This document shows positions 16,038-21,262 of a DNA stretch of 33,771 bases, in pieces. A program made the translations under genes and the position numbers. The stretch is from an uncultured Silvanigrella sp. (GTDB taxonomy: Bacteria > Bdellovibrionota_B > Oligoflexia > Silvanigrellales > Silvanigrellaceae), in NCBI GenBank assembly GCA_903933385.1, contig CAIZJW010000097.1, positions 1 through 33,771 of the forward strand, read 5' to 3'. The first letter of the stretch is position 1; every line of letters begins with the position of its first letter. Under the pieces are notes generated by a model. It worked only from the letters and a program-made list of their open reading frames with translations, searched no databases and was not told where the DNA came from.

Positions 16038-16390
16038 CAACATCCAACAACCAACCGCCAGGCCCTTCCACCATCGGCGACAAAACTGTCCCTGAATCGG
16101 TGCATGGAAAGATTCTTGAGCTGAGGGACATTGAAACACGTTTGGGTCATCTGCCAGTCGAAACATTTGCTGTTTCAGATCTTCACAAGCGATTTACCGA
16201 TCCAAGCCAAATGAGCCATGTCTCATTTATGGAGCAACGCACTGAAGTTCTTTTCAGAGAAATTTCTGGGGAATTGCACGACTGCGGCTGGTCGTTGAGT
16301 GAAATTGCCCAAGCGATAAACACTCTGCTTTCTTACAGCGGTGGTCCAAAATACTGCAATGAAGACGAAGTTGCAGAGGTTCTCGGATGA
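16034..16390 (+). CDS. Hypothetical protein, 118 residues
   Basis: I do not recognise this protein. It is acidic, soluble-looking and helical, with no signal peptide or membrane span. The middle reads like a regulatory or adaptor helix bundle (LHKRFTDPSQMSHVSFMEQR) and the end contains a helix-rich segment (SLSEIAQAINTLLSYSGG). Its start overlaps the hflX stop (ATGA) and its stop overlaps the murB start by four bases, so it is very probably translated and coupled to both. That context supports it being real despite lacking a known family. The conserved-looking position between a ribosome-rescue GTPase and a cell-wall enzyme gives no clear function. Confidence 0.75.
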   Translation: MTTSNNQPPGPSTIGDKTVPESVHGKILELRDIETRLGHLPVETFAVSDLHKRFTDPSQMSHVSFMEQRTEVLFREISGELHDCGWSLSEIAQAINTLLSYSGGPKYCNEDEVAEVLG

Positions 16391-18045
16391 GAGCCGCAGG
16401 GCCGTCATGTATCGTCGAAAATCAACACATTGGCTCTACCACCTATTACTCTATTGGCGGCAGCGCAGCCTTTTACGCACGTCCGAAAAGCCTCGCTGAT
16501 CTTGCAGAGTGTTTGAATTGGGCTCGAGAAAAGTCACTTCCGATTGCCATTTTGGGCAGTGGAAGCAATGCCCTACTGGCCGACGGAACATTCAACGGAC
16601 TTGTGATCACTCTCTGCGAACTGACAGCAAGTTACTGGGAAAATGAACAGACTCTTTTTGTGGAAGCTGGAGTCACGAACACCGAGGTTGCAGAAATCTG
16701 CCTGGATGCAGGACGAGCCGGCGCCGCGTGGATGTACAGAATGCCTGGTCAGCTCGGTGCAACAGTGCGTATGAACGCGCGCTGCTATGGTGGAGAAATA
16801 TCCCAGATCGCAGTTGATATTTTTACGATGGATGTTGAAGGTCGGCTGCGTATCCGTTCGGGCAAAGAAGTTTTTCACGGCTACAAGAAAACCCTTCTCA
16901 TGGACTCTCCAGAAGTGGTTGTTGCAGCTCGTCTCTTCCTCCCAACAACAGCCTCGAGGGAAGAGCTTTTAGCCATCATGGAGAGCTGCGAATCCGACAG
17001 GCACCGCAAGCATCACTTTGACCACCCAAGCTGTGGCTCTACCTTTAAAAATAATTATGCAGTGGGACGTCCGAGTGGACAGGTTTTCGAACAATGCGGC
17101 TTAAAGGGTGCCCGACGCGGGCAATCAGAAGTGAGCCAATTTCATGCAAACTTTGTTTGGAATCTCGGCAATGCAACAGCCCACGACATGCTTTCTTTGG
17201 CCGCCCACATGCGAGAACGAGCGTTCACGCTGCAAAATGCAGATCTCGAACTTGAAGTGCAACCGATCGGTTTATTTTCTGACCAGATTATTCAAGACTG
17301 CGCGCTCGATCGCCTTGGGCCCACTGTCGCCGAAGAAGATGCCAAGTGGGTGGGTTTGCTCTGGCATGCGCGCGCTGCCTCAAGTCACAGTTCTGAGGAA
17401 TTCAAAGAAACAACTCTGCTTGAATCGCCCTACTTCGATTATTTCCGCACCCCCGGAAAAGGGCAACCTGAAATAGCTCTCCGGCTGGTGCAATTGATTT
17501 CACTCAGTGAGGCCGCAAGCAATCCAGAGCAACCTTTCCTGCGTTGGGAAACACACCTCAAGAACACAAACAAAACCTGGAATGATCTCTTCCCGCTGAA
17601 ACCTACCCAATCTGTCGGTTTCGTTGATGAGCTCTGGCTCAGCAGTGTCTCAGAACTTTTTATCGCAAACGGTGATCCGGCAAAAACCGATTACCTAGAA
17701 TTCGAATGCACTCCCGATGGCCACTGGATCGCTATTGCTTTCGACGGGCCGCGCAAACGTCGGCCTGAACATTCAACGCCCAATGCTAAATTTTGGCCCG
17801 ACTTTAAGTTCGAGCGAGAAGAGCGATGCTTCTCAGTGACATTCAACCATTCCCGACTCGCGGCTATGATTCACAATTCGCAATTGAGAATTCAAGCCTG
17901 CCTCAGTTTGGGGGGTGAAGGCTTTTACCTTGCACCGCACTGGAGCCCTTCAGGAAGCGCAGAATGCTGGGACACACAACATAAACCCGATGTCAAACCC
18001 GACTTCCATCAACCACAGCGCTTTTGGCGCGTTGCATTGCTCTAA
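16387..18045 (+). CDS. murB: MurB (UDP-N-acetylenolpyruvoylglucosamine reductase) with C-terminal DOMON-like extension
   Basis: Residues 1-296 are a MurB enzyme, which reduces UDP-GlcNAc-enolpyruvate to UDP-MurNAc with NADPH and FAD. Visible motifs are the FAD-binding YSIGGSAAFY and LGSGSNALL, then MPGQLGATVRMNARCYGGE, the CGSTFKN block with the likely catalytic serine (Ser218), and a Glu near 288-290. MurB is normally about 300-350 residues. Here roughly 255 more residues follow. Residues about 415-552 look like a beta-rich DOMON/CBM9-like ligand-binding fold (LWLSSVSELF, YLEFECTPDGHW, and an FWRVALL end strand). I recall that such a domain has been catalogued on some MurB-like proteins, but cannot check. 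There is no signal peptide. The start overlaps the previous gene by four bases. Confidence 0.87.
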   Translation: MRAAGPSCIVENQHIGSTTYYSIGGSAAFYARPKSLADLAECLNWAREKSLPIAILGSGSNALLADGTFNGLVITLCELTASYWENEQTLFVEAGVTNTEVAEICLDAGRAGAAWMYRMPGQLGATVRMNARCYGGEISQIAVDIFTMDVEGRLRIRSGKEVFHGYKKTLLMDSPEVVVAARLFLPTTASREELLAIMESCESDRHRKHHFDHPSCGSTFKNNYAVGRPSGQVFEQCGLKGARRGQSEVSQFHANFVWNLGNATAHDMLSLAAHMRERAFTLQNADLELEVQPIGLFSDQIIQDCALDRLGPTVAEEDAKWVGLLWHARAASSHSSEEFKETTLLESPYFDYFRTPGKGQPEIALRLVQLISLSEAASNPEQPFLRWETHLKNTNKTWNDLFPLKPTQSVGFVDELWLSSVSELFIANGDPAKTDYLEFECTPDGHWIAIAFDGPRKRRPEHSTPNAKFWPDFKFEREERCFSVTFNHSRLAAMIHNSQLRIQACLSLGGEGFYLAPHWSPSGSAECWDTQHKPDVKPDFHQPQRFWRVALL

Positions 18046-18082: not shown

Positions 18083-18103
18083 TTGCCAAGGATGGGTTGG
18101 GAC

Positions 18104-19591
18104 ATGGACCACCGTTCAGTTGCATCATCTAGAGTTCATCGTTTTTGCTTGCCGTTTGTTTTCCTTTTGGGGGCTCAAGCGTGCAAGCCGCGTGTTTTCA
18201 ATGACTCAATGGAATCTTCAACCGCACGGTCTGCAAGGCATGGAAACGAAGCTTTGGCCGCCGCACTGACTCCCCTTTGGCCAATCCCGAAATCGGCTGC
18301 AGACGTTGCTGCACTACCGGCTGTCACCAGCACGGGAATCTCAACGCTTCTTTGGCAACGAATTCTTGCCGAATCCTTTGTCGACAACAGCACTGGGCGG
18401 CCTTTGACACTGTCGAGCCCGGAATGTGCACGTTCTGTTGATGCGTGGCGAATTTCCGCTGCTCGACTTTCGCTTTATGAAGTTGATTTGCCAGGCAACG
18501 TCACCAGCTGGCAAACACTCGCCTTACAACGTGAAAGCGACCTGGCTCAAAGGATACAGCTGCACATCACAGTTCAACCCTGGTGCAGTAGCACACGTCT
18601 GGAACGCAGCGACTTTGTCCACACGCTCGATCACGCTGTCCAATTAACGTTTGATCTGAGTTTGCCATTCCTCTCAAAACACAATCAAGCTTGGCTGGAA
18701 GAGCTCTCAGCTAAAAGTCGTTCAGAGAGTCAGTTAGTCGTTAAGTCGGAAAACAAAATTCTGCCCTACGCAAGAGCTTTGCTCGACATCAATTCGAGCC
18801 AAAATGGCCGCGCTGCGATCGTGGCAGCATGGAACGACTCACTGCAAACGCAGAGCCTCGCCAGAGCGAACAGATTCCCCAATGCTGAGTGGCTGGGTCT
18901 GAAACAATCGCTCGGCGCAAATCGTAATTTGAAAATTGTTGGAAAAGGAGTGCTAGCACACCCTACCCTGCAATCAAATTCATCCGCGCTTGCGCCTTTT
19001 TTTGCTAAGTTCATTTCTGAAAAGAATCTCGTCCGTATCCGCGCGCACATCACTGAAGGACTCGGAACCTCCCAGCACTTCTACCGCTGGGAGAAGCAGG
19101 CTGGAAAAATGGCACGCGTGGCGCTGCAAACAACTTCAGCCTCGTGGGACAGAGGAGCTAATACAGTGACTCTCAGCCCACTCTTGGTGAATCCGCAACT
19201 ATCTAGCAGATTGGGAGTTGAGCAACCTGCATCTGAAGCCCATCGGCCACTTCTACGCGACGTCGATCTCGAGTCAACGCCTATGGCTAACGACATTGAA
19301 CCTCAGGAACTGATTTCATTAAATGAAAAAATCATCGACCATGAGCGCACGTCCGTTCATTCAACTCGCTGCGTGAGCTGTCACGCACTCGATGACGCGC
19401 AAAATTTTGCGCGGGAAGGTCGCCCCGTTGCACAACGTGGAATCACCCCAGCGCAATTGACACTCATTGGAGTCAGCGCTGATGGCCGTCCGGTTGTGAA
19501 TTTGCGCTCGCTCCGCACCGCAGATTCAGACGCTGCGCGCTTTGAAGAGGAATTTCACAATGTCCACCAACCCCGATCCGCAAAGCAATAA
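18104..19591 (+). CDS. Putative lipoprotein with a single C-terminal haem-binding CxxCH motif
   Basis: This is an exported protein of about 495 residues that I do not recognise. The N-terminus has a hydrophobic signal core (FCLPFVFLLGAQAC) with an atypical lipobox-like Cys, so it may be a lipoprotein; ordinary signal peptidase cleavage is also possible. Near the C-terminus the sequence CVSCH (about residues 425-430) is the covalent haem motif of c-type cytochromes, but only one copy is seen and no axial methionine can be assigned. The remaining ~400 residues have no family I can name. ATG 18104 is picked over TTG 18083 and ATG 18092 because AAGGA lies ten bases before it. Its 3' end overlaps the next gene by 32 bases in another frame. 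Confidence 0.72.
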   Translation: MDHRSVASSRVHRFCLPFVFLLGAQACKPRVFNDSMESSTARSARHGNEALAAALTPLWPIPKSAADVAALPAVTSTGISTLLWQRILAESFVDNSTGRPLTLSSPECARSVDAWRISAARLSLYEVDLPGNVTSWQTLALQRESDLAQRIQLHITVQPWCSSTRLERSDFVHTLDHAVQLTFDLSLPFLSKHNQAWLEELSAKSRSESQLVVKSENKILPYARALLDINSSQNGRAAIVAAWNDSLQTQSLARANRFPNAEWLGLKQSLGANRNLKIVGKGVLAHPTLQSNSSALAPFFAKFISEKNLVRIRAHITEGLGTSQHFYRWEKQAGKMARVALQTTSASWDRGANTVTLSPLLVNPQLSSRLGVEQPASEAHRPLLRDVDLESTPMANDIEPQELISLNEKIIDHERTSVHSTRCVSCHALDDAQNFAREGRPVAQRGITPAQLTLIGVSADGRPVVNLRSLRTADSDAARFEEEFHNVHQPRSAKQ

Positions 19592-19802
19592 TTCACAAAT
19601 TTTGCAAAAACTCTCGGATGAGCAAAAGCATGACCTCATGGCCGCACTTCTTTCTGTAAAATGGGCTGCCGATATGCTTCAACCTTCCGACGGTTCCGAG
19701 CCTCCCTGCGCGTTGATTGCTGCGCATCTGCTAAAATCGCACCAGCATTTAACTCCATTTATTGAAGCTATTTTAGCACAAAGCGAAGGCTCAATTTCAT
19801 GA
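19560..19802 (+). CDS. 80-residue H-box protein, stand-alone DHp-like phosphotransfer candidate
   Basis: This small protein of about 80 residues looks like a bare histidine-kinase dimerisation domain. Residues 24-40, HDLMAALLSVKWAADML, fit the H-box pattern (His24-Asp25-Leu, then Leu, Ser-Val-Lys, Ala-Ala, Leu). A Pro-containing turn (about 42-49) and a second helix (50-72) complete a two-helix hairpin. No ATPase domain follows. The canonical Pro of the H-box is missing, so it departs from the textbook motif. The ATG has GAAGAGGAA seven bases upstream, begins inside the preceding lipoprotein gene, and ends overlapping the response regulator start by four bases. This coupling suggests it serves that regulator as a phosphotransfer or docking partner. 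The kinase that would phosphorylate it is not in view; a simple helical protein of other function remains possible. Confidence 0.6.
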   Translation: MSTNPDPQSNNSQILQKLSDEQKHDLMAALLSVKWAADMLQPSDGSEPPCALIAAHLLKSHQHLTPFIEAILAQSEGSIS

Positions 19803-21262
19803 TAAACGTTTTGCATCTCGATGACGACGCATTGTTTCTACACCGTTGTTCAATTTCGTTTAAAACATCACCCCATGTCGCTCACATCAATTACTCCACA
19901 GCAAATAGCGCCGAGGAATTTAAAAGCAAACTGGCAAGCCAACAACCACAAGGCGTTCTGCTCGACCTGAGCTTTGGTGGTAAAGCCCTCAAAGGGCTTG
20001 AAGTGTTGCGCGAAATCAGGGAGCAAGGCTACCAGGGTTCTGTTATGGTCATGTCAGCGCTCAGCACCTCCGACATTATTCTCGAATGCATGCGCGCCGG
20101 AGCGAACGATTTTCTCTCAAAAGGCGTCGATGAAAGTGAACTCACATTCCGAGTCTCGAGGCTGCTGCAAAGCGTCAATCCACAGCTTCCGTTTCGTGGA
20201 ACAACTCGCAATCTACCAGCGCATATCACAGGCCGAGCTATGCGGGATATTCAACAACGGCTTGCTCGAGTGCTCAACTCCTCGGTGCGCTCGCTGCTCG
20301 TTTCAGGAGAGAGCGGTTCAGGCAAGGAAATGGTTGCAGACACGTTGCGATCACTCCTCCCAGCGGGGAGCCCATTTATCTCAATCAACTGTGCTGCTCT
20401 CGCCACGAATCTTATTGAAGGTGAAATATTCGGCCACGAAAAAGGAGCTTTTACAGGCGCAACACACTCGAAAATTGGCTTGTATGAAGCTGCCGATGGA
20501 GGCTGGTTCTTTCTCGATGAAGTGGCGCGACTCAGCCTTCCGGCACAAGCCTCTCTGTTGCGTGCTCTTGAGAATGGTGAAGTGAGGCCTGTGGGTGGAA
20601 CGCGTTCAAAAAAGGTCAATGTAAAAGTCATTGCTGCCACCAATGAATCCCTCGATAAAATGGTTGAAAACGGAGAATTTCGCGCTGATCTGCTCTCACG
20701 ATTGCGTGGGTACGAGATCGCTTTGCCTCCGCTGCGAGCGAGAAGTCATCTTGAACGCCAAGAGATTGTTGAAGCTTTATTAGATCGACTCAATGTCTCA
20801 GTGCCCGTGGACAGCAGCGAATTCCGCATCACCAACAGTTGTATGGCTGTTCTTTGCGGTTTGCCGTGGGATCAGGGAAATATCCGCGAACTTTGGCAAA
20901 CAATTTTGGCCATGAGCGTCGATGCCAGCGACGGAGTTTTGAGTCTTGAGTCTCTGCCGCCGCGGCTCTTGCAGAAAAAGAAAGCGGAGAGCCAATCAAC
21001 CGAGGCAGTTCAGCAAATCAACGAAACACCGCTCTGTCCAGCACCTGAAATTCTTCCGGAAGGATTGAAATCAATCCTCACTCCAGCATTTCCATTGAAT
21101 TTCGAGAACCTCGTTGACTCTCTTTTTGAACATCTACTCGATTCGTTGCGCAGAATCGCTGGTGAAGAATTCCCAAGCCAACGCGTGGTCGCACAAATGT
21201 TTAGCATGACCCGCCATGAGGCAACGCAACGCATGGCACGCACCGGGAAAAGCCATCAATAA
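19799..21262 (+). CDS. NtrC-type sigma54-dependent response regulator
   Basis: This 487-residue transcriptional activator has three parts. The first is a receiver domain with acidic residues near 8-10, the phosphoacceptor Asp56 in LLDLS and conserved Lys108. The second is an AAA+ sigma54-activation domain with Walker A GESGSGKE (170-177), the sigma54-contacting GAFTGA (216-221) and Walker B FFLDE. The third is a Fis-like helix-turn-helix at the C-terminus (VVAQMFSMTRHEATQRM). The intact GAFTGA and Asp56 imply a working activator. Its ATG overlaps the stop of the 80-residue H-box gene, and no canonical histidine kinase is adjacent. It ends in a 7-base overlap with the convergent lipoprotein gene. 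Target promoters are not identifiable by eye. Confidence 0.92.
   Translation: MINVLHLDDDALFLHRCSISFKTSPHVAHINYSTANSAEEFKSKLASQQPQGVLLDLSFGGKALKGLEVLREIREQGYQGSVMVMSALSTSDIILECMRAGANDFLSKGVDESELTFRVSRLLQSVNPQLPFRGTTRNLPAHITGRAMRDIQQRLARVLNSSVRSLLVSGESGSGKEMVADTLRSLLPAGSPFISINCAALATNLIEGEIFGHEKGAFTGATHSKIGLYEAADGGWFFLDEVARLSLPAQASLLRALENGEVRPVGGTRSKKVNVKVIAATNESLDKMVENGEFRADLLSRLRGYEIALPPLRARSHLERQEIVEALLDRLNVSVPVDSSEFRITNSCMAVLCGLPWDQGNIRELWQTILAMSVDASDGVLSLESLPPRLLQKKKAESQSTEAVQQINETPLCPAPEILPEGLKSILTPAFPLNFENLVDSLFEHLLDSLRRIAGEEFPSQRVVAQMFSMTRHEATQRMARTGKSHQ

Follow-up and report, generated by a model that had tools for sequence, protein, structure and literature searches.

A stand-alone DHp-like hairpin protein in Silvanigrella is genetically coupled to a sigma54 response regulator, belongs to a class-wide family and is a probable minimal phosphorelay element

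The window analyzed here is the whole 33,771-nucleotide stretch of contig CAIZJW010000097.1 from an uncultured Silvanigrella sp. It contains three overlapping genes on the same strand, which encode a lipoprotein, a protein of 80 residues (referred to here as mini-DHp) and a sigma54-type response regulator (RR). The features discussed in the text are as follows.

18083 to 19591, + strand: lipoprotein gene with one CVSCH motif, overlapping the mini-DHp gene; found as its neighbor in this genus only
19560 to 19802, + strand: mini-DHp gene (80 aa), encoding a stand-alone H-box hairpin protein; based on the ORF, its conservation, AlphaFold2 (AF2) and the family profile
19617 to 19679, + strand: helix 1 (residues 20-40), H-box-like QKHDLMAALLSVKWAADML; based on AF2 and aligned with HisKA helix 1
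19629 to 19631, + strand: codon of His24, the predicted phospho-accepting histidine
19680 to 19706, + strand: inter-helix loop (residues 41-49), with DGSEPP in it, running into Cys50
19707 to 19784, + strand: helix 2 (residues 50-75); based on AF2 and aligned with HisKA helix 2
19799 to 21262, + strand: sigma54-type RR gene (receiver and sigma54 AAA+ domain), the predicted phosphate acceptor
19964 to 19966, + strand: codon of RR Asp56, the predicted phosphorylation site, invariant in 15 aligned RR orthologues

The ORF at 19560-19802, whose translation is MSTNPDPQSNNSQILQKLSDEQKHDLMAALLSVKWAADMLQPSDGSEPPCALIAAHLLKSHQHLTPFIEAILAQSEGSIS, is a real gene. Orthologues with 50-54% identity are found in two more genomes of the genus, and within the conserved core most changes between orthologues affect the third codon position (for example, 8/4/23 changes at positions 1/2/3), which indicates that the ORF is translated. 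The gene shares 32 bp with the upstream lipoprotein gene, which ends at 19591, and 4 bp (ATGA) with the start of the RR gene at 19799. Both of the other genomes in the genus that have the mini-DHp gene show the same order, lipoprotein/mini-DHp/RR, and the single CVSCH haem motif of the adjoining lipoprotein is conserved in all three; the lipoprotein had no Pfam match. A tblastn search of plasmids gave no match. The window also encodes a MurB-like protein of 552 aa (16387-18045), in which the MurB domains of Pfam account for residues 28-292 and the C-terminal ~260 residues are left unassigned.

The RR matches Response_reg (1.8e-15) and Sigma54_activat (3.3e-53) in Pfam. It contains GAFTGA, and D8, D9, D56, S86 and K108 are invariant among the 15 aligned orthologues. 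With the DD/D/S-T/K residues of a receiver, an AAA+ domain carrying GAFTGA, and a full-length rpoN on contig C31 of the same genome, it is an NtrC-type sigma54 RR. A histidine, residue 6, comes just ahead of the acidic residues (HLDDD); all of the 15 orthologues aligned first share it, as do most of the wider set. Besides this rpoN, the window's genome has another sequence that matches the sigma54 DNA-binding domain (G000:C326:1-246), truncated where its contig ends. Sigma54-like promoter sites in the window numbered 26 against 24.9 expected, no excess over chance.

AF2 predicts that monomeric mini-DHp forms a two-helix hairpin of residues 20-40 and 50-75, with a mean pLDDT of 93-95 over the central helical blocks (94-95 in the helix 1 block), from an input alignment of three rows, one of which (A1) came from genome-search locus L003; further family members, available from loci of that sort alone, were left out of the modelling. 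The protein stops just past helix 2, and the 80-aa ORF has no match to HATPase_c or another ATPase domain in Pfam, that is, no CA domain of a histidine kinase. His24 and Asp25 are invariant across the three genus orthologues. So is the loop DGSEPPC, which is not conserved in the wider family described below. These results agree with the sequence-only reading, which had described an H-box-like helix followed by a second helix, the lack of an ATPase domain and overlaps with both neighboring genes, and had named conservation of His24 and a helical hairpin (the one predicted here resembles DHp domains such as that of CpxA) among its checks. Kinase activity of HisKA proteins depends on the acidic residue that follows the histidine, and their phosphatase activity on the T/N located four residues after the histidine (PMC3510030). 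In the three orthologues the D is kept and the T/N position is A, A and S, which argues for phosphotransfer over phosphatase action.

mini-DHp is a member of a hitherto undescribed family that occurs across the class; its proteins stand alone, are 61-143 aa long and share the helix motif H-D-[LIV]-[KR]-[AG]-[AS]. A search across the class with the three genus orthologues alone gave no further clear orthologue, and the family was discovered by examining the best RR match in each relative for neighboring small ORFs. Small ORFs adjoining or overlapping the RR gene were found in other families in G016, G041, G035, G052 and G046, then in G042, and then in G034, G045 and G050; the first five were picked by adjacency, and their common H-D-[ILA]-x-A was seen afterwards. 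When the small RR-adjoining proteins were aligned with MAFFT, H and D formed one invariant column pair. A profile of nine proteins found more small proteins outside its build set of genomes or loci, at E values of 1e-20 to 2e-7 (for example, KRRHDVKAALRTLGF from the f6 family), and a second profile round brought in the remaining lineages. Among 29 aligned members, whose identity falls as low as 9-15%, the H is present in 28 and the following D in all 29. The hydrophobic positions +2, +6, +9, +13 and +16 after the histidine fit a buried helical face, and the position four after it is A or G in most members. The exception among the 29 is an unlinked paralogue (G052:C36) with QD; a G003 member outside the 29, divergent from the RR gene, has HQ in place of HD. 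The unusual bare protein that the sequence-only reading had placed next to its regulator is real; it is not a one-off and has counterparts across the class. No earlier description of a DHp-only phosphotransferase was found in the open-licence papers searched. A second mini-DHp-like subfamily, with the motif KQR[HQ]D and not linked to the RR, occurs in G041, G042 and G052 (L087 1483-1785, - strand; L140 321-551, - strand; L141 1209-1466, + strand), with Q for H in one member.

Weak but convergent evidence relates mini-DHp to HisKA-type DHp domains rather than to HPt domains, each single homology signal being weak. HisKA (PF00512) did not match mini-DHp even at an E value of 10, no histidine-kinase model of Pfam or NCBIfam reached its cutoff, and scans of Pfam, NCBIfam and PDB gave scattered subthreshold matches, including DUF5071 at E 0.063. 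Because no curated HisKA model reaches threshold, we place mini-DHp outside PF00512 and regard it as a remote relative of DHp domains. The top PDB match in Foldseek was the DHp-containing HDC fragment of CpxA (weak, E 1.1). With a three-member profile, the DHp of EnvZ was the best of 177,635 PDB sequences (E 0.085), His24 being placed on the phospho-His; the full-family profile did no better, with a DARPin first and EnvZ second. Against a HisKA profile of twelve domains, eleven of them from the same genome, the three-member profile aligned His on His through both helices at P 3.4e-4, with a score of 23.1 versus 9.3 +/- 2.1 for shuffles, and none of 200 column shuffles was as good. The family-wide profile gave P 1.4e-4 against HisKA (0 of 100 shuffles as good). 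mini-DHp is recognized here as a remote DHp by three features, namely the hairpin, the placement of the histidine early in helix 1, and the His-on-His alignment over both helices.

Membership in HPt (PF01627) was rejected, as Pfam Hpt gave no match and hhalign of the family-wide profile with Hpt domains of the same genomes gave P 0.03 with the histidine unaligned. Only this profile-profile comparison separated the two classes; the full-family HMM gave no separation when individual HisKA and Hpt sequences were scored with it. These genomes contain many Hpt domains, yet none was noticed among the family-profile matches inspected. When 58 genomes were searched with the nine-member profile, the long proteins that ranked next after the family members were overwhelmingly histidine kinases aligned at their H-boxes (SHELKTPL, THELKTPL, SHDLRAPL, LHDIRSPL, IHDIKTWI and others); all seven such matches scanned had HATPase_c, and five had HisKA. 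The other long matches include a probable CHAD-type helical protein, judging by its sequence, and one that resembles a coiled coil.

Our results show that mini-DHp is coupled genetically to a phosphorylatable RR and is inherited together with it. A family gene adjoins the orthologous RR gene on the same strand in 12 genomes over four families, lying upstream in G000-G002, G016, G035, G041, G042 and G052 and downstream in G034, G045, G050 and G046. Among 56 genomes, 31 have both RR and family member, 3 the RR only, 2 the family only and 20 neither (Fisher, 4e-10), with at least 220 bits demanded for the RR and E 1e-3 or better for the family, a threshold chosen after the fact. All 29 genomes whose inspected RR orthologue has an intact receiver (DD/D/S/K) contain a family member, the RR of G046 being counted as intact although its N terminus is cut. 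By contrast, none of the five with a degenerate receiver does (G013, which is only 72% complete, G017, G027, G032 and G038; intact versus degenerate, P = 3.6e-6). These statistics are confounded by shared ancestry, though the degenerate-receiver cases span three families. Retention of mini-DHp only together with a phosphorylatable receiver is the pattern expected of a phosphodonor. In G046, a ricin-type beta-trefoil lectin-domain protein adjoins the RR/mini-DHp pair (L105 4462-5076, - strand).

Candidate phosphate donors are found in several relatives. The order is RR, mini-DHp and hybrid kinase in G034 and G045, and mini-DHp, RR and hybrid kinase in G035 and G042. These four linked kinases all carry an H-box of their own, reading HDVKKPF or HDVRKPF, together with a HATPase and one or more REC domains. 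The cluster in G050 runs into a homologous, partial kinase N terminus at the contig end, and in G048 a mini-DHp gene away from the RR overlaps the start of a gene resembling the kinase N terminus of G035 and G042. A kinase of ~1,100 aa lies nearby in G003. The kinases of G050, G048 and G003 count as partial or probable cases. In the genus of the window, the putative donor is unlinked to the mini-DHp gene. The window's genome has two unlinked HDVRKPF-family kinases, on contigs C49 and C91, which we infer to be candidate donors; the former has a divergent C-terminal receiver-like segment without Pfam recognition, and the latter is cut by the contig end. HDVRKPF hybrid kinases were rejected as a universal donor, since this type was not detected at E 1e-30 in G001, G041, G052 or the four genomes of the g20 genus, so that other donors would be needed if the relay is general. 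Linked hybrid kinases of ~930 aa are encoded at L156 5287-8076 (- strand) and L107 6498-9317 (+ strand); the former has an N-terminal match to SBP_bac_5, a solute-binding-protein domain that is unusual as the sensor of a hybrid kinase. Kinases of the HD[VI][RK]KPF type are strongly expanded in G004 and G034, with at least 20 matches in each.

We consider it likely that mini-DHp is a dimeric, DHp-only histidine phosphotransferase that passes phosphate on to the sigma54 RR. In the relay that we infer, the hairpins of two copies would come together as a four-helix bundle. Phosphate would pass from the histidine of a hybrid kinase, putatively one of the two candidates in the window's genome, to the aspartate of the kinase receiver and from there to His24 of mini-DHp. 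Transfer from His24 to Asp56 of the RR encoded directly downstream would complete a His-Asp-His-Asp relay, and the AAA+ domain of the phosphorylated RR (GAFTGA) would activate RpoN-dependent promoters. The receiver-to-receiver step has indirect support, from synteny and co-occurrence. Because the family is present exactly where the RR can accept phosphate, mini-DHp is probably a minimal relay part. The idea of a minimal relay element, raised in the sequence-only reading, is strengthened by synteny and by the strict co-occurrence with a phosphorylatable RR, phosphotransfer itself being predicted from these patterns.

Other explanations assign a different role to the hairpin. The CA domain of another protein might phosphorylate His24 in trans, the hairpin then phosphorylating the RR directly as one part of a split kinase. 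The aspartate next to the histidine, a residue needed for HisKA autokinase activity (PMC3510030), is kept, and the window's genome has many HATPase_c proteins. We nevertheless regard a split kinase as unlikely, since the hybrid kinases clustered with the family in relatives have their own H-box and would not need mini-DHp, and no CA-only partner gene lies beside the RR-linked family members in the neighborhoods listed. It is similarly improbable that mini-DHp acts as a noncatalytic docking protein or sink, one that binds the receiver and keeps the RR inactive or modulates its dimerization without passing phosphate via His24. Translational overlap suggests coupled production, and one unlinked paralogue lacks the histidine; yet the histidine is otherwise retained throughout so divergent a family, which is missing precisely in those genomes whose receiver no longer has its phosphorylation residues.

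Isolated DHp domains of the EnvZ type can act as phosphatases, and mini-DHp could by analogy be a dedicated RR phosphatase. We think this very unlikely, as the T/N required for this action (PMC3510030) is replaced in the orthologues and in most of the family. It is hardly credible that mini-DHp is a helical hairpin protein of unrelated origin whose likeness to an H-box is accidental. Although no curated family model matches and the Foldseek E values are above 1, the shuffle controls, the family-wide H-D conservation, the kinases found as next-best matches, the synteny and the co-occurrence with intact receivers all speak against chance.

The relay reading also raises the possibility, which we put forward tentatively and with more doubt than confidence, that the DHp-only hairpins are a new class of histidine phosphotransferase and act as a funnel through which a set of HD[VI][RK]KPF-type kinases, expanded in certain lineages, would signal to a single sigma54 RR. 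The copy numbers, usually one or two of mini-DHp and one to two dozen of the kinases in some genomes, might be read in this way. If the relay itself is right, a bare DHp hairpin is sufficient for specific receiver recognition and relay, and the family provides the phosphodonor that was lacking for these sigma54 regulators, which would otherwise be orphans, across a whole bacterial class. To our knowledge, its members would then be the smallest DHp-type phosphotransfer proteins. Their size makes them easy targets for work on structure, phosphotransfer and specificity.

mini-DHp resembles the HisKA DHp domains of EnvZ and CpxA in its hairpin, the histidine at the start of helix 1, the acidic neighbor and a similar hydrophobic spacing. 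It differs from HisKA kinases in having no CA domain and no sensor, in falling below Pfam detection and in having small residues in place of the T/N and P found four and five residues after the histidine. HPt domains (PF01627) do an equivalent relay job and share the letters H-x-L-K-[GA]-[SA]; they are monomeric four-helix bundles, whereas mini-DHp is a hairpin only and its profile does not align with theirs at the histidine. Spo0B has an RHD-type H-box like that of mini-DHp; it differs in having a C-terminal domain and in its partners, which are Spo0F and Spo0A and not a sigma54 RR. mini-DHp is like this phosphotransferase of the Bacillus sporulation relay in its hairpin, two of which, from two subunits, form a four-helix bundle in Spo0B, as is also known for ChpT (PMC3433190). 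In the Caulobacter CckA-ChpT-CtrA relay, ChpT is a dimeric DHp hairpin whose histidine relays phosphate between the receiver of a hybrid kinase and a DNA-binding RR (PMC3433190, PMC9981736), as proposed here for mini-DHp. A pseudo-kinase may stand in for an HPt in relays (PMC9981736). ChpT has retained a Bergerat ATPase domain, though a degenerate one, whereas mini-DHp has no C-terminal domain, kinase-like as in ChpT and Spo0B or otherwise; the catalytic lobe, still present in degenerate form in ChpT, would be wholly gone if our reading is correct. The RR proposed for mini-DHp is a sigma54 activator, unlike that of ChpT.
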